The position numbers and the translations under genes were made by a program. Below the pieces are notes generated by a model that did not search any database, was not told the origin of the DNA, and saw only the letters and a list, made by a program, of their open reading frames with translations. This document shows, one piece after another, positions 16,719-25,867 of a stretch of 36,947 nt of DNA (within the stretch, counting starts at the first letter, position 1; each line of letters starts with the position of its first letter). This stretch comes from Anaerolineae bacterium (lineage in GTDB: Bacteria; Chloroflexota; Anaerolineae; Anaerolineales; UBA11858). The DNA lies in assembly GCA_011176615.1 (NCBI GenBank), contig DUEG01000002.1:1-36947 (forward strand), read 5' to 3'.

Positions 16719-19700
16719 TCAATTGCTTTTGACAATGGTTTGGAGAACAGCGTTGAAATCATCGATTGTAAAAGGCTTTTGTAACCAATGCACCCTCCCT
16801 TTTTCAAGCAAGGCTTGTGCATCTTTGCCTAGGGGATGCCCCGTGACAAAAAGAATTTTGGTGTCTCGCCAGCGTTCTTTGATTTGATTATAAAGGTCAA
16901 TGCCGTCCATTTGAGGCATTACGAGATCGCTGATTATTAGAAAGATCGATTTATTGTAACGCTCTAATTGATCTAGAGCGACTTTCCCGTTTAGTGCAAG
17001 GATCACATTATAGTGTTGGGCTTCTAAAAGAGTCCGTAAAGCCTTTCGTGTAGAAGCGTCATCCTCGACAATAAGCACCATTTTGCCTTTACCGTCCATG
17101 TCTCCTAGGCTTGAGATGTATTTTTTAGGGGTGGAAGATCCGCGTAATTTTGGCAAGAAAATGTGAAAAGTAGTGCCTCTGCCGACTTGTGTGTCGAATG
17201 TAATCACACCGTCATGCTGTTTGATGATCCCGTAAACTTGCGCTAATCCAAGCCCGGTACCTTTATCAACAGGCTTTGTTGTAAAGAAAGGTTCGAAGAT
17301 TCGTGAAGTTAATTCTGGCGGAATGCCGCGGCCGGTATCGGATACGGATATGCGTATCCATTCTCCCGGTGTAATATCAGGTGATGGGGGAATGTCGTCT
17401 TTTCTAAATTTGACATGGGCAAGTTCGAAGCGAAGCGTACCGCTTTTTTCCATTGCATCCCGCGCATTAACTGCTAAGTTCATAAACACTTGTTGAAGTC
17501 GAGTGGGGTCTGCAGTGACGAGATATTGATCGTCCTCGTAAGAAAGTTCGACGCGAATGGTCTCTGGTAAGGTGCGGTCAAGTATTTCTTTGATTTCTTT
17601 AATAAAAGGCAGGAGATCGAGGGGGCTTGGTTCCATAACAGAACGACGACTGAAATCAAGTATCTGTCGAATCAGGCTAGAAGCACGTTGTACCTGTTGT
17701 TGGATAGTTTCAATGCGCTCCTCGCTTTCGGATGTTAGATTAGCGTCCATCTTTAGCAGATCTATGTAAACCGTGATTGTAGCCATGATATTGTTGAAAT
17801 CATGTGCGATACCGGCAGCCAATTGTCCCACGGTTGCTAATCGGTCTTGTTTTTGGATATGGTCTTGTATTTTTCGCTCTTGGGTAACATCGCGCATCAA
17901 AAGTACCCATTGTTTTCTGTCGTTGTCTAGCGGGTGAATTTGAGTTTCAAAAGTACGTTTCTGCGGTCGTTCAATGGTGATTTCAACCGGTAACGGGTCA
18001 TTATGTTTAGCAACCAATTGGGTTATTGGATATTTGCCGAGTTGATATATCACATCTCCAATCTTAGCGTAGGTTAGGAGTGACATAAATTCGTTCCCCA
18101 AGGGATTAGCGATTTGTAAACGGTAGTTTTGATCGAGTAAGAGGATTCCAATTGGCAATCTTTCAATCAGACTCTCTAAGCGGTACTGCTCTGCTGCAAG
18201 CATATCTACTAAGCGGTTGATGTCTTGGTATCGTCTGGCATTACTGAGCGCGAGGCTGGTTTGCTGACTGATCGCTTGAAGAAGTTCAAATTGGTTTTGA
18301 GTAAAGGCGGCAGGTTCTGTGCTCAGGACGGAAAGGGTGCCGAGCAATTTGTCTTCCTCCAAGAGAGGCACAACCATGGCGGAGATAATGTCTTCATCGA
18401 GGTTGGGCATTACACGCCAGCGTTCATCTTCTCTTACGTCGGATATATTGACAGGGTGACGATTTTCTGCTACCCAACCATCAAGTCCAACATTCATATT
18501 TTGTTTGAGATTCTGTTCGGGTTCAGCGATATTAGTATCTGTTTTTTTGTAAATAGCCCGCATGCTGAGGAATTTCTCTTCAGGTATATATATACATGCT
18601 TGCCCCATGGAGGCACCCATTGCTTTGCAGGTAAGTTTAATGGCTCGTTTCAGGATTTCATCAGGGATTAAACTGGTCGTAACAGCCTTTCCAATGTCGT
18701 ACAGTAACCCCAAGTGGCGGCGCTCAATTGTGGTTTGTTCGAACAGGCGTGCGTTCTCGATTTCGAGAGCGGCTTGGTCTCCCAATAATTGGAGTAAACG
18801 GATATCGCTATCGCTGAAAGCGTCTGTTTCTTGGCTAGTCACATTAATAACCCCAGTAACGCATCCCCCTGTTTTCATTGGAATGCTCACGATTGAACCT
18901 TGCCACCCTTTCTGCGTGGCAATCTCATCGAAAAGTGGATGATTATGTAAATCTGAGATTACGATGGTTTCACCGCTACGGGCGACCTTATAAGTAAGAC
19001 CATTTTCGCGTGGTTCAGATATTGGTTTATCCTGTTTCCTATGCTGCCATACTGCAGCGCCAAAGGTCAACAGATCATTTTTATAGAAAAAAATATGTGC
19101 GTCCAACGCAGCGGGAATCAATTGGAATATTCCTTCAAGGATAGCGTCAAGAACAGCCTTTTGGTCAAGACTTGTGGTTAATTTAAGATTAACTTCTCTT
19201 AATTTTTCAAGCGCTATTACGCGCTTTTCTTCTGTCTGGAATATATGTGCGTTCTCAATGGCTGCAGAAGTATGGGCGGCGAATGCTTGGACTAACGCGA
19301 TTTCGTCATTATTGAATCCCCCCGGCTCTATTCGGTCAATTCCCAAAAAGCCAATAGTTTGATCGCGGATGAGAAGAGGTGCGCCCAGCCAAGACCGGAC
19401 GTGCTCAGAAATAGGAGTGCTCTCCCAATATGGGCTTTGTTGGGTATCTAAGATGACAACAGGTTTCTTAGTAGTGATTAATTCCTGGATAATTTTGTTG
19501 TCAATATTCAAAGAGATGTTATGAAGGCGAGATGGATCAATATAAGAATCGTAACCAAATCCGGCACGCATATTGACATCAGCGCCTTCAATGAACATAA
19601 CATTTCCAGAATCAAAGGGAAGGACATGTGCCAATTGCTCAAGAACAGTATTGATAATTTGATCTAAAGAAAGCGTTGAACCAATCACATGCGCTGCTTC

Positions 19701-22700
19701 ACGGAGGGCTTCAGCGCGTTCACGTGCGTTGTGTTCAGACTCGAACAGTCGGGCGTTTTCAATAGCAATTGCTGCTTGGCTCGCGAAGGCTAGTACAGTG
19801 TCGCCAATGTTCTCGTTATAAGCATTTGGTGTTTTGCTATCCACATTGAGAATACCAATAATTTGACCCCGAACGATCAATGGTGCTCCTATCCAGGAGC
19901 GCACATATTCTGTTCCTTCAATTCCAAGCCATTCCGGGTCATTTTGGGTATCTTTGATGACATAAGCATTTTTATTTCTAAAACGTTTTTTAATAAGATC
20001 GTAACTTAGATTTTCAATGATTTTGTCAGCAACCTCAAAATCCGGGAAACCGCGTCCTGCTGCCAAATAGAAAGTGTTATCCGGTTTTGGTAATTGAATT
20101 GAAACACTATCGAATTCCACTACTTGACCCAAGCAATCTAAGATATGCTCGAGAACCTTATCCAGTCCTAATTCGGATGTAAGTAACATTCCTACTTGCT
20201 GTAGTGAACGCGAAAGGGCTAATTGAGCGCGTTCGGCTTTTAATAATCGGATATTTTCAATTACAATCGCCATATGGTGAGCGAGCGCTTGCACTGGTTC
20301 GATGTCCTTCTTGGAGAAATAATTAACCAGGAAACTATCCACCATAACTGCGCCAATCATCTTTCCTCTCGCGATGATTGGGACGCCTAAGAAGGAACGA
20401 ACATCTTCTGCGCCAGGTACCCATATCCATTTGGGATCCTCTCTGACATCTGAGACGATAACTGGCTGTAGTTGCTTCAGCATATCTTTAAGGATAGGGC
20501 TATCACGAAGTAAAACACTCGCCTCTTGTCTGGTGAATTTCTCGTCCTGGTACCCAATACCGGCGATGAAATTTGTTCTGTTCTTTTCATCGAAGAGGAC
20601 CACCGAAGCCGTATCGAATGCAATCATCCGCTTGAGTTGTTTTAAAATCAATTGAATGCTTTGCTCTAGATTGAGTTTTCCACTAACGGTTTCAGCAACA
20701 TCTCGAAGTGCTTCCGCTTGTTCACGTGCGGCTTGTTCTGCCTCGAATAAACGAGCGTTTTCAATCGCCATTGCTGCCTGATTAGCAAAGGTAAGCGCGG
20801 TTTTACTGTTGGCTTCTGTATAGAAAGTTTTTTTCTGATTCCCTATGGAAAGCAATCCAATGCATCTATCTTTATTGATCAGTGGAACACCGATCCAGGA
20901 GTGAATATTCTCTTCGCCAGGGATGTTCTTCCAGCCCTCGAGCGATTGAATATCACCAAAAACGTATGTTTTGCCCTCATATATAATTGGTTGAATAAAA
21001 GGGTGGCTGGATATCGTGTAAGCATATCCGGCTGTATCCGGAATAACATCACCCTCTACAGCCCGTAAAATAAGCAAATCTCCCTGAATAATTTGAACCA
21101 GAGCACTATCGTAAGCGATAACATCTTGTAATCGTTCAAGAATTAGGCGAATGACTTTGTCGGTTTCAAGGGTAGAAAGAAGTGCACTGGTGATTTCGCC
21201 TAAAGTTTCGGCTTCCTTCCTGCGACGGCGCTCAGAGTCAAATAAACGAGCGTTTTCAAGCGCAATGGCGGATTGTGTCCCAAGGGCTTTTAAGAAACTT
21301 AAGTGCTCTTCATCAAAGGCATTTGGTTGGAAGGAGAGCACAGATAATGCTCCAATCAAATGATTATTTGAAATGAGCGGTGCACCAAGCCATGAGCCAA
21401 TCTTTTGTTTATCCCCTAGTTTTACTGTTGCAGGTAGTTTCTCTGCTTGCATGTCGTTGATGAGCAATGGCTTACGGTTGCGCATAACCCATTCAATTAA
21501 TTCCCCGTTTTCGTGTGGCAGTCCTAAATTCCCTGATTTTATGCTAGTTTCAACCGATTCCATTGCTGTTGATACACGGGTTTCTTTGGTTTCCTCATTG
21601 AACAAGGTGATGCTAAATGCATCAGGCTTAATTAGTTTTTGAACCTGGTCGTTTAATATCGTTAAAAGGGTTTCAGCGTTAAGTACTCCGCTTGTCTTTA
21701 ACGCAACTTCATATAAACCGGAAAGTTCGTGAGTTCGTCTTTGTGTTTCATTGATAAGGCTTACATTATCAATAGCAATTGCAAGTTGGTCTGCCATTAT
21801 TTGTAAAACTTGCATATTATCTTCGTTAAATGTTCCTTCCTCCTGGCTTTGAACATCTAAAACGCCGATAATTTGCTCACCGATTTTAAGTGGAAGTGCC
21901 AGTTCCGAACGTGTGCTTGGGAGAGATGGATTAAATTCGAAAGTTTGGTTTTTCTGAACATTTGAAACCAGGCGGGAAATGCCTTTTCTTGCGACGTAGC
22001 AGATCAGATAATTGTCATCTAATTCAAGCCGGTGTTTTTTTTCAAGAAGCAATTTTCCGGTGTTACCTCCTGCAGCAGCAAGAACAGCGTATTTCCGGTC
22101 TTTGTCAATTAAATAAATGCCAGCATGATAAAATCCGTAGCGATCTTTTATGAGGTCTGCTGCGCGATTTAAGAGCACTTTTAAATCTTTTGTGGCGGTT
22201 GCATCACGGGCAATTTCTGCTGCAACCTGCAGTTGAGTCGCTCGCATGCTTAAATTCTTAGAAGACGCTGTGAGTTTCCTTTCTGTATTCTTCCGTTCGG
22301 TAATGTCTAATAAATGCCCGAATGTCTGCGGATTGCCACTGGGGTCAATAAAAGTTGCAAATGAGAGTTCTACGTCTTGAGTGGTTCCATCTTTCCGTAT
22401 GATCTTGAATTCATGACGCGCGTGGCTAGATTCAAATTCTTGTCTATGTAGATAGAAGTCAACCAGACTTTTAACGCTTTCTGGACTTATATATCGTCGA
22501 AGGTCTGTGCCAATTACTTCATCGCATGGGAAACCTAATGTTTTGCAGAAACTTTTATTACCATAGGTTAACTTAAAGTCATTATCGACGATAAATGTTC
22601 CAGTAGGAGCCTGTTCAACAAGGGCACGGAATTTTTCCTCATTGCTTTGTAAGTCATCAAGTGCACCTTGGCGATCGTCTTGGCTTCTGACTTTCTGAAT

Positions 22701-23060
22701 TTCTTTTTTGATCACTGAGACAAGTTGGTCAATATTCTTTTTGGGGATATAGTCGTGTGCGCCAGCCTTTAATACTTCTGATATTGTTTCTTCATCGGCT
22801 ATGTCAGAAAAGAAGATAAAGGGAATATGTAATAATCTGCTGTTGTAGATTTGTAGGGCATCTAATCCATTAAATTGTGACAATTTATAAGCGGAAATGA
22901 TACAATCCCACTCATTTGTGGTTAACGCTACTTTCATCTCGACAGCAGTTTGAACTTGCCTGAAATCGACTTTATAGCCGTGTTTTCGGAGCGCTTCGAT
23001 AATTAAGCGGGTTTTTTCTTCAGAATCTTCGATTATTAATAGGAAAAGATGTTCATTCAT
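16719..23060 (-). CDS. Giant hybrid sensor histidine kinase: REC(degenerate)-PAS-GAFx8-PAS-HisKA-HATPase-REC
   Basis: 2113 aa. N-terminal receiver-like domain, PAS (FRALVEQAPTGTFIVDNDFKLTYGNKSF), eight GAF-type units recurring as ...ALG/FA.QAA.AIENARLF..., H-box LAAGIAHDFNN, N/G boxes (NLAVNARDAM, VSDTGRGIPPE, GTGLGLAQVYGI), C-terminal REC (IISDLVMPQMDG). Confidence 0.93.
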   Translation of the reverse strand: MNEHLFLLIIEDSEEKTRLIIEALRKHGYKVDFRQVQTAVEMKVALTTNEWDCIISAYKLSQFNGLDALQIYNSRLLHIPFIFFSDIADEETISEVLKAGAHDYIPKKNIDQLVSVIKKEIQKVRSQDDRQGALDDLQSNEEKFRALVEQAPTGTFIVDNDFKLTYGNKSFCKTLGFPCDEVIGTDLRRYISPESVKSLVDFYLHRQEFESSHARHEFKIIRKDGTTQDVELSFATFIDPSGNPQTFGHLLDITERKNTERKLTASSKNLSMRATQLQVAAEIARDATATKDLKVLLNRAADLIKDRYGFYHAGIYLIDKDRKYAVLAAAGGNTGKLLLEKKHRLELDDNYLICYVARKGISRLVSNVQKNQTFEFNPSLPSTRSELALPLKIGEQIIGVLDVQSQEEGTFNEDNMQVLQIMADQLAIAIDNVSLINETQRRTHELSGLYEVALKTSGVLNAETLLTILNDQVQKLIKPDAFSITLFNEETKETRVSTAMESVETSIKSGNLGLPHENGELIEWVMRNRKPLLINDMQAEKLPATVKLGDKQKIGSWLGAPLISNNHLIGALSVLSFQPNAFDEEHLSFLKALGTQSAIALENARLFDSERRRRKEAETLGEITSALLSTLETDKVIRLILERLQDVIAYDSALVQIIQGDLLILRAVEGDVIPDTAGYAYTISSHPFIQPIIYEGKTYVFGDIQSLEGWKNIPGEENIHSWIGVPLINKDRCIGLLSIGNQKKTFYTEANSKTALTFANQAAMAIENARLFEAEQAAREQAEALRDVAETVSGKLNLEQSIQLILKQLKRMIAFDTASVVLFDEKNRTNFIAGIGYQDEKFTRQEASVLLRDSPILKDMLKQLQPVIVSDVREDPKWIWVPGAEDVRSFLGVPIIARGKMIGAVMVDSFLVNYFSKKDIEPVQALAHHMAIVIENIRLLKAERAQLALSRSLQQVGMLLTSELGLDKVLEHILDCLGQVVEFDSVSIQLPKPDNTFYLAAGRGFPDFEVADKIIENLSYDLIKKRFRNKNAYVIKDTQNDPEWLGIEGTEYVRSWIGAPLIVRGQIIGILNVDSKTPNAYNENIGDTVLAFASQAAIAIENARLFESEHNARERAEALREAAHVIGSTLSLDQIINTVLEQLAHVLPFDSGNVMFIEGADVNMRAGFGYDSYIDPSRLHNISLNIDNKIIQELITTKKPVVILDTQQSPYWESTPISEHVRSWLGAPLLIRDQTIGFLGIDRIEPGGFNNDEIALVQAFAAHTSAAIENAHIFQTEEKRVIALEKLREVNLKLTTSLDQKAVLDAILEGIFQLIPAALDAHIFFYKNDLLTFGAAVWQHRKQDKPISEPRENGLTYKVARSGETIVISDLHNHPLFDEIATQKGWQGSIVSIPMKTGGCVTGVINVTSQETDAFSDSDIRLLQLLGDQAALEIENARLFEQTTIERRHLGLLYDIGKAVTTSLIPDEILKRAIKLTCKAMGASMGQACIYIPEEKFLSMRAIYKKTDTNIAEPEQNLKQNMNVGLDGWVAENRHPVNISDVREDERWRVMPNLDEDIISAMVVPLLEEDKLLGTLSVLSTEPAAFTQNQFELLQAISQQTSLALSNARRYQDINRLVDMLAAEQYRLESLIERLPIGILLLDQNYRLQIANPLGNEFMSLLTYAKIGDVIYQLGKYPITQLVAKHNDPLPVEITIERPQKRTFETQIHPLDNDRKQWVLLMRDVTQERKIQDHIQKQDRLATVGQLAAGIAHDFNNIMATITVYIDLLKMDANLTSESEERIETIQQQVQRASSLIRQILDFSRRSVMEPSPLDLLPFIKEIKEILDRTLPETIRVELSYEDDQYLVTADPTRLQQVFMNLAVNARDAMEKSGTLRFELAHVKFRKDDIPPSPDITPGEWIRISVSDTGRGIPPELTSRIFEPFFTTKPVDKGTGLGLAQVYGIIKQHDGVITFDTQVGRGTTFHIFLPKLRGSSTPKKYISSLGDMDGKGKMVLIVEDDASTRKALRTLLEAQHYNVILALNGKVALDQLERYNKSIFLIISDLVMPQMDGIDLYNQIKERWRDTKILFVTGHPLGKDAQALLEKGRVHWLQKPFTIDDFNAVLQTIVKSN

Positions 23061-23498: not shown

Positions 23499-25115
23499 TT
23501 ATAATTCTTGTATCAAATATAGTTTTCCCCGTTTAAATCCTCTTTTAAGGTAATATTGCCGAGTACCTATTGCAGAGATAACGGCTAAGCGTTGGTAGCC
23601 TTTCTGGCGGGCAATTTGCTTAGCGGTATTGATGAGTTTGGAGCCAAATCCCGCATGTTGGGCAGCGCCTTGTTGTTCCTCACCTACAAGGAGGGATTGT
23701 CCATAGACATGAACCTCTCGTATGATTGCAGCGCCCATTAAATCATCGAATCCGATTTGGGGAGATTGAGGCAAAGGAAGCGATAAGCGTAAAAAACCTG
23801 CGAGTTTGTCTTGGCGAGTAACATAAGAAAGGAAGTGTTCTTCTGCGAATTCGGCTTGATAAACCAAATCATCTAGTTGGAGATGTTTGGGGTCGATTTT
23901 TTGGCTACGGACTTCGCGACAACGGATGCATTGGCAACGGGTATTCCTTCGAGCGAGTTCGCGCTGAACGTCTTGGCGCAGACTCGTACGTTTATTCCCT
24001 TCTACAACATTCTCGGAAGGAATATCCCGAACGATACGATTCACGCGGCAGTAGCGTGGAATCGTGGGCTTGATATCCGCAATTAAATCGATGAGTTGAT
24101 CTGTGGTGTATGGTTTGTACTCGCCACGCTTCCAATAATTGTAAAGTTCTGCATTCTTGAGCAATTGAGTGGGATAAATCTTAATCTCATCCGGATCAAG
24201 CCCTTGCCATAATTTTGTAAAGTCTTCTTTATCAGATTCAATTGTTGCTCCAAGTAGATTCGGCATCCAATGGAGAACGATTTTAAAGCCTGCTGCCCTT
24301 AATAGCGTAACCGCTTTTTTTGTGTCGGCTACAGTATGCCCGCGTTTGTTGATTTCCAAAATATGGTCATCAAGGCTTTGCGCGCCCATTTGGACTTTCG
24401 TGACCCCAAGGGAACGCATCCATTCAATTTCCTGAAGATTGATTTGATCAGGTCTTGTCTCAACGACTAAACCGACGTTGCGGTGGTTTGCAGTTTCGTT
24501 GAATAGTTGCGCATCGGACAAAGTGGCTGTCCCTTGCTCGTTCATTGCATCAAGACAACGATGGATGAACCATTCTTGGTAATCCTTGCGGTAAGCATTC
24601 CAAGTTCCGCCAAGTACGAGAAGTTCGATTTTGTCAGTCGGGTGACCAATAGATTCTAGCGCATCGATACGGGCTGCAACCTGGTCGTAAGGGTCAAAAT
24701 TATGATGTAAAGCGCGCATTGCTCCGGGTTCATCGGGTAGATAACTTTTCGGCATACGTACATCTGTGGGACAAAAGATGCAGTGACCGGGACATGGATA
24801 CGGTTTTGTAAGAACCGTTACTGTGGTGACACCAGAGAGCGTACGCATGGGTTTCATGCGAATACGTGCCAGCAATGCCGGATCAGGCTTCCACTCCCCG
24901 CTTTTGATATGCTGGCGATAAACCGCGACAAGCAAATGCTTGCCGAGAAAACCTTCTCCATTTGGCAGCGGATAACGACGAATCGCATCAAAGACTTTAC
25001 GACCATTTCGTATTTCGTCTAAAGCCTTGCGAGCAAGGTCTAACTTCTCAGGGGTATATTTTCTGCTCTTGTACCAGGCTAGGTCTCTTTTATTGGTTAC
25101 TTTTCTATCAGGCAA
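23499..25115 (-). CDS. elp3: Bacterial Elp3: radical SAM / GNAT tRNA wobble-uridine carboxymethyl-modifying enzyme
   Basis: 538 aa; radical SAM Cys cluster (KPYPCPGHCIFCP), DPYDQVAARIDALESIGHPTDKIELLVLGGTW, C-terminal GNAT IREVHVYGQSL...GFGSKLINTAKQIARQKGYQRLAVISAIGTRQYYLKRGF. Starts at TTG (25115..25113). Confidence 0.93.
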   Translation of the reverse strand: MPDRKVTNKRDLAWYKSRKYTPEKLDLARKALDEIRNGRKVFDAIRRYPLPNGEGFLGKHLLVAVYRQHIKSGEWKPDPALLARIRMKPMRTLSGVTTVTVLTKPYPCPGHCIFCPTDVRMPKSYLPDEPGAMRALHHNFDPYDQVAARIDALESIGHPTDKIELLVLGGTWNAYRKDYQEWFIHRCLDAMNEQGTATLSDAQLFNETANHRNVGLVVETRPDQINLQEIEWMRSLGVTKVQMGAQSLDDHILEINKRGHTVADTKKAVTLLRAAGFKIVLHWMPNLLGATIESDKEDFTKLWQGLDPDEIKIYPTQLLKNAELYNYWKRGEYKPYTTDQLIDLIADIKPTIPRYCRVNRIVRDIPSENVVEGNKRTSLRQDVQRELARRNTRCQCIRCREVRSQKIDPKHLQLDDLVYQAEFAEEHFLSYVTRQDKLAGFLRLSLPLPQSPQIGFDDLMGAAIIREVHVYGQSLLVGEEQQGAAQHAGFGSKLINTAKQIARQKGYQRLAVISAIGTRQYYLKRGFKRGKLYLIQEL

Positions 25116-25129
25116 TGTATAATGTCCTT

Positions 25130-25867
25130 ATGCAAGAGTCCACTGTAAATAAAATTCTTGCCATCAACAATGAATTTTACCAGACCTTTGCACTCCGATT
25201 TTCAGAGACTCGGATGCGAATACAGCCTGGTGTGCGTAATATTCTTCAACGTATACCTGATGGAGTGCGACTGCTTGATTTGGGCTGTGGAAATGGGGAA
25301 GTCGCCTATACTTTAGCAGCGCGTGGGTATCGGGGGCAATATGTGGGGTTAGATTCATCCGAGACGCTACTGATGTTTGCAAAGAAGCGCCTAGAGCGCT
25401 TTGCAAACTTTCGGTTCTTACTGGCTGATTTAGCGCAGCCCAACTGGAATTTTAATCTGCCACCCGAAAAATATGATTATGTGTTCGCATTTGCTGTACT
25501 ACATCACATTCCTGGGAGAGGCTTACGCCTTAAATTACTGAATTCAATTCGAAATTATTTGCCTCGAAATGGGAAATTCATCCATTCTAATTGGCAATTC
25601 ATTAATAGCGAGCGCCTGAGAAAGCGTATCCAGCCATGGGAGAAAGTTTCTATTAGAGACGATGAACTAGATTCAGGAGATTATCTATTGGATTGGCGAC
25701 ATGGCGGTGTTGGGCTGCGTTATGTGCACTTATTCGACGAGAAAGAGTTGGCGGCTCTGGCTAGGGATACAGGCTTTCAGGTAATTGAAACATTCTATTC
25801 GGATGGGGAAGGCGGGAATCTTGGCTTGTATCAAGTTTGGCAATTAAATCAGAAGCAAACAGATTAG
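25130..25867 (+). CDS. Class I SAM-dependent methyltransferase, Trm9/ALKBH8-MT-like
   Basis: MQESTVNKILAINNEFYQTFALRFSETRMRIQPGVRNIL...LLDLGCGNGEV...FAFAVLHHI...RYVHLFDEKELAALARDTGF. Motif I plus FSxTR, AVxHH and RYxHLxxExEL features recalled from Trm9. The ORF track starts at 24962; likely starts are ATG 25115 or 25130. Confidence 0.85.
   Translation: MQESTVNKILAINNEFYQTFALRFSETRMRIQPGVRNILQRIPDGVRLLDLGCGNGEVAYTLAARGYRGQYVGLDSSETLLMFAKKRLERFANFRFLLADLAQPNWNFNLPPEKYDYVFAFAVLHHIPGRGLRLKLLNSIRNYLPRNGKFIHSNWQFINSERLRKRIQPWEKVSIRDDELDSGDYLLDWRHGGVGLRYVHLFDEKELAALARDTGFQVIETFYSDGEGGNLGLYQVWQLNQKQTD

Follow-up and report, generated by a model that had tools for sequence, protein, structure and literature searches.

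An elp3 gene and a gene for a Trm9-like methyltransferase lie head to head in the window, a stretch of 36,947 nucleotides from an Anaerolineae bacterium (contig DUEG01000002.1), and we consider it quite likely that this pair is a two-gene bacterial Elongator-Trm9 pathway, which would yield mcm5(s2)U34 and replace MnmE/MnmG. A first-pass annotation of this DNA had proposed a two-gene bacterial mcm5U pathway. That proposal is supported by the pairing of the two genes across Chloroflexota, by the exclusion of MnmE/MnmG from genomes with elp3, and by Trm9 as the closest solved relative of the methyltransferase. In eukaryotes, Elongator (Elp3) makes cm5U-type intermediates at U34, and Trm9 together with Trm112 methylates them to mcm5U. 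The eukaryotic wobble-base pathway involves more than a dozen proteins.

Divergent arrangement of elp3 and the methyltransferase gene

The two genes had been described as head to head with almost no intergenic DNA. This was borne out by the ORF calls, according to which they are divergent and their start codons are separated by 14 nt (Table 1). The methyltransferase frame has two in-frame ATGs, at 25115 and 25130, and the first-pass annotation had allowed either as the start. The ATG at 25130 is the likelier one, because orthologs begin there and a TATAAT element ends 6 nt before it. The ATG at 25115 is less likely, since the position of TATAAT places it before the start of the presumed transcript. 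Like the window, most orthologs of its order have a perfect TATAAT at a distance of 6-8 nt from the methyltransferase start. With such a spacing to the ATG at 25130, the mRNA would begin at the ATG, which suggests that the methyltransferase mRNA is leaderless. A generic sigma-70 two-hexamer scan at the locus gave no full promoter. Both reading frames are credible because of the TATAAT/ATG spacing, the ortholog starts and the AAGGA before the elp3 TTG.

Table 1. Features of the elp3-methyltransferase locus in window coordinates.
Feature	Position	Strand	Description	Basis
elp3	23499-25115	(-)	Radical-SAM/GNAT enzyme of 538 aa, predicted to carboxymethylate tRNA U34; starts with TTG	TIGR01211; comparison with DmcElp3
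Trm9-like SAM methyltransferase	25130-25867	(+)	Predicted cm5U34 carboxyl O-methyltransferase, 245 aa	Profile, fold and residues
TATAAT, -10-like element	25118-25123	(+)	Ends 6 nt before methyltransferase ATG	Also in most orthologs
AAGGA, Shine-Dalgarno-like	25125-25129	(-)	9 nt before elp3 TTG	Read directly from sequence

Upstream of the methyltransferase gene at loci L005, L007, L013-L015 and L019, back-to-back -10-like boxes (ATTATA...TATAAT) lie a few nt apart. Their arrangement suggests that the promoter is truly bidirectional and that the leaderless start of the methyltransferase is conserved. In relatives, a gene for a CysH-like PAPS reductase often stands between elp3 and the methyltransferase gene on the elp3 strand (L010, L013, L014, L015, L017, L018, L026). 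The copy in L015 matches PF01507 with 165 bits, and those of the other loci resemble it at the N-terminus; the window has no such gene. Downstream of elp3, positions 16719-23060 of the (-) strand encode a protein of 2113 aa that, judged by eye, seems to be a sensor kinase with multiple GAF/PAS domains and receiver domains.

Identification of Elp3

By its sequence, the elp3 product is securely identified. It matched NCBIfam TIGR01211 with 503 bits (cut-off 350), and its Pfam domains are Radical_SAM, Radical_SAM_C and GNAT. Archaeal, Dehalococcoides mccartyi and eukaryotic Elp3 structures match the window protein across the catalytic core. It is homologous to D. mccartyi Elp3 (DmcElp3, PDB 5l7j; 41% identity) with conserved catalytic residues: K77, K193, E386, H388 and Y441 of DmcElp3 (acetyl-CoA/active-site) correspond to K162, K278, E467, H469 and Y521, while the position of R411 is occupied by S. 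The FeS motif is CX3CX2C as in the D. mccartyi enzyme, whereas archaeal Elp3 has CX4CX2C. Published work treats the D. mccartyi enzyme as an isolated bacterial Elp3, and in the open-licence papers searched we found no mention of the adjacent methyltransferase.

Pairing of the two genes across Chloroflexota

The survey comprised 349 genomes of Chloroflexota, with the window genome (G000) at 82.7% completeness; genomes were assigned as Chloroflexota, Anaerolineae-like or Dehalococcoidia on the basis of named loci and the phylum sampling. The elp3 gene was present in 58 of them. A methyltransferase of either the window type (A1) or the Dehalococcoidia type (A2) was found in 57 of these 58 genomes and, at the thresholds used, in none of the 291 genomes lacking elp3; a few generic matches in the latter (1e-11 to 1e-12, about 30% identical, mostly partial) were left out of the count. 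The A1 type occurred in 33 elp3-containing genomes, all of the window's order or class, and the A2 type in 24 outside the class. Because the genomes are related, such counts are not independent; at the family level, the methyltransferase was present in 19 of 20 families with elp3 and in 0 of 66 without (p=4e-18).

The two genes were divergent neighbours within about 2.3 kb in 29 of the 33 A1 genomes and in all 24 A2 genomes, that is, in 53 of 57. The four exceptions (G096, G144, G176, G240) carry both genes in the same genome, unlinked. Co-occurrence and adjacency of elp3 and the methyltransferase gene are thus far beyond chance, and the neighbourhood survey called for in the first-pass annotation revealed that the pair is kept in 19 families, which belong to two classes or more. 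Named GTDB loci with the A2 type numbered 80, most of them from Dehalococcoidia; 65 were directly divergent with elp3 and 5 more had elp3 within about 3 kb; several of the others are contig ends.

G192 (G192:C7, L043) was the sole elp3-containing genome in which neither methyltransferase type was found; its elp3 is neighboured by a histidine phosphatase-domain protein and by proteins without methyltransferase matches. Three records titled Deltaproteobacteria (L092, L113, L136) carry the Dehalococcoidia-type methyltransferase, in L113 and L136 next to elp3. Either these bins are misnamed or the gene has been transferred to another phylum.

Relationship of the methyltransferase to Trm9

When the curated libraries (Pfam, NCBIfam) were searched, the METHYLTRANSFERASE family gave generic methyltransferase matches only, none over an equivalog cut-off. 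The Pfam matches of the window protein were Methyltransf_23, 31, 12, 25 and 11. UbiE, UbiG and CmoB were rejected by their NCBIfam scores (29 against a cut-off of 216, 28 against 103 and 22.5 against 275, respectively), as were BioC and TehB, which also fell below the curated cut-offs. Generic matches of this kind would fit an enzyme unrelated to Trm9 that methylates a small molecule, rRNA or protein and has no more than a bidirectional promoter region in common with elp3. However, the gene accompanies elp3 even in the four genomes where the two are unlinked, is absent from every genome lacking elp3, and is paired with it in two classes in the form of divergent sub-types, which makes this explanation very improbable.

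In a single-sequence phmmer search with the window methyltransferase, Trm9 ranked just fifth, yet with the widest coverage, and profiles were therefore needed. Profiles A1 (30 window-type sequences) and A2 (10 Dehalococcoidia-type sequences) are related over most of their length (hhalign probability 99.6). Yarrowia Trm9 (5cm2_Z) came first among 177,635 PDB sequences with both profiles, with E 3e-13 for A1 and 2e-20 for A2. Its lead over the next methyltransferases was small (53 vs 49 bits and 76 vs 75 bits), but the nearest competitors align to the Rossmann core only, whereas the alignment with Trm9 extends into the C-terminal lid (RYYHLY region). The C-terminal half of A2 alone, with the core removed, matched only Trm9 in the PDB (E 2e-5, next 1.4). 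The corresponding half of A1 gave no PDB match and matches the C-terminal half of A2 (probability 96.8). In the reverse direction, a search with the Trm9 sequence through whole genomes returned the elp3-associated gene as the best match in every one of 11 genomes with the Dehalococcoidia type; of 11 genomes with the window type, 8 gave this result, the exceptions being G072, G232 and G317.

The AlphaFold2 model of the window methyltransferase had a pLDDT of 95.3. With Foldseek, Trm9 ranked first in the PDB for this model (TM 0.79 by target length) and second for a Dehalococcoidia-type model (TM 0.78). As judged by full-length profile, Trm9 is the closest solved relative of both sub-types. The suggested comparison of Trm9/ALKBH8-type with generic methyltransferases has thus come out for Trm9, which ranks first for the window protein by profile and fold, with no grouping with UbiE or small-molecule enzymes.

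The FSETR, HH and RYVHLF segments which had been singled out in the window protein are present at their described places and conserved in orthologs, and all 30 window-type sequences share R28, H126, R197 and Y198. Yeast residue numbers were placed on the motifs of the methyltransferases from what we take to be the yeast Trm9 sequence. With numbers placed in this manner, window R28, H126 and R197 would be equivalent to yeast R29, H115 and R241, V199 stands for yeast Y243 and N271 is not conserved, so that 3 of 5 tRNA-binding residues are kept; the Dehalococcoidia sub-type, under the same presumed numbering, has equivalents of all five. The yeast mutants R29A, H115A, R241A, Y243A and N271A lost tRNA affinity and turnover (PMC5372719).

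Another explanation is that the methyltransferase acts after Elp3 on U34 but yields another derivative, or that it methylates another position of the same tRNAs, the final C5 product being cm5U or another group. The two differing residues of the window sub-type and the nearly equal scores of generic methyltransferase families speak for it. On the other hand, the Dehalococcoidia sub-type retains the complete residue set together with a C-terminal region that matches Trm9 only, and both sub-types track elp3; hence we regard this explanation as unlikely.

Exclusion of MnmE/MnmG and distribution of MnmA and Trm112

MnmG was found in 141 of the 349 genomes, and in 137 MnmE scored over its cut-off; none of these contained elp3. 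Conversely, neither MnmG nor MnmE was detected in any of the 58 genomes with elp3, so the proposed search for these two enzymes showed both to be absent wherever elp3 is present. Of 26 genomes sampled for MnmA, which is responsible for 2-thiolation, 25 have retained it, G000 included.

No Trm112p over the cut-off was found in G000 (82.7% complete) or in the Dehalococcoides-like G007 and G030, both single-contig and 99% complete. Because of the completeness of G000, the absences of MnmG, MnmE and Trm112 in the window genome rest on its relatives. Small frames with a Trm112p domain (about 77-99 aa) occur in the relatives G072, G104, G112, G168, G232 and G317. These frames would suit a Trm9 that, like the eukaryotic enzyme, requires a partner resembling Trm112, which would make three genes; the lack of any such frame over cut-off in G000 and in the two nearly complete genomes counts against it. 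Such a partner is not very likely in our view, and would be a variant of the two-gene Elongator-Trm9 explanation without excluding it. The possible independence of Trm112, raised in the first-pass annotation, is accordingly better supported for the Dehalococcoidia sub-type than for the window sub-type, because several Anaerolineae-like relatives of the window genome carry a small Trm112-like protein and the window sub-type keeps 3 of 5 residues.

From the MnmEG exclusion, the MnmA retention and the Trm112 pattern in these genomes, it follows that the elp3-methyltransferase pair probably does the job of MnmEG on U34.

In 144 of the 349 Chloroflexota genomes, many of them more than 90% complete (e.g. 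G037, G128, G152), there was no Elp3, MnmG or MnmE over cut-off.

Proposed pathway and comparison with known systems

In the proposed pathway, Elp3 would use SAM and acetyl-CoA to carboxymethylate the wobble uridine at C5 (cm5U34). Its neighbour, the Trm9-like methyltransferase, would then esterify the carboxylate of cm5U34 with SAM to give mcm5U34, and MnmA would add the 2-thio group, so that tRNA-Lys, -Glu and -Gln would carry mcm5s2U34. Such a pathway would substitute for MnmE/MnmG and operate without Elp1, Elp2 and Elp4-6 and, at least in Dehalococcoidia, without Trm112. We infer the substrate, the product, the order of the steps and the absence of Elongator scaffold proteins.

The methyltransferase resembles yeast Trm9-Trm112 and human ALKBH8-TRMT112 in that Trm9 heads the PDB profile matches of both sub-types and the fold matches of the window protein, in the presumed equivalents of R29, H115 and R241, and in following Elp3 chemistry. 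It differs in its identity of about 21-35%, in the lack of conserved Y243 and N271 in the window sub-type, in that Trm112 was not found in several of these genomes, and in being bacterial and paired with elp3. Bacterial MnmE-MnmG (cmnm5U34/nm5U34) modifies the same base, has the same presumed role in NNA/NNG codon reading and the same thiolase MnmA, but its enzymes are unrelated and never shared a genome with elp3 in the 349-genome survey.

In the archaeon Sulfolobus solfataricus, Elp3 and Trm9-like genes are clustered (PMC2584109), and Trm9 has been reported in few archaea (PMC5372719). The archaeal homologs likewise combine a stand-alone Elp3 with a clustered Trm9-like gene and a predicted mcm5(s2)U34, whereas the Chloroflexota genes are bacterial and divergent, are found together in nearly every genome with elp3 and occur alongside bacterial MnmA. 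In bacteria and archaea, a stand-alone Elp3 is reported to go without Elp1, Elp2 and Elp4-6 (PMC6367351). Trm112-dependent methyltransferase relatives have been described as not detectable in bacteria (PMC5372719), the Trm9 mcm5U modifications as exclusive to eukaryotes (PMC6382703), and bacterial Elp3 as limited to Dehalococcoides, without direct evidence for xcm5U derivatives (PMC7663514). Our literature search, covering open-licence papers, found no description of a bacterial elp3-methyltransferase pair.

For Chloroflexota as a whole, it is reasonably probable that Elp3 and a Trm112-free Trm9 make mcm5(s2)U34 and wholly replace MnmEG, in which case eukaryote-type wobble chemistry would be standard in a large bacterial group. 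If so, both the second enzyme that had been missing and the likely product would be accounted for, and the pathway would work without the Elongator scaffold. Ideas on how the mcm5U pathway arose in evolution could then be tested in small, stand-alone bacterial enzymes.
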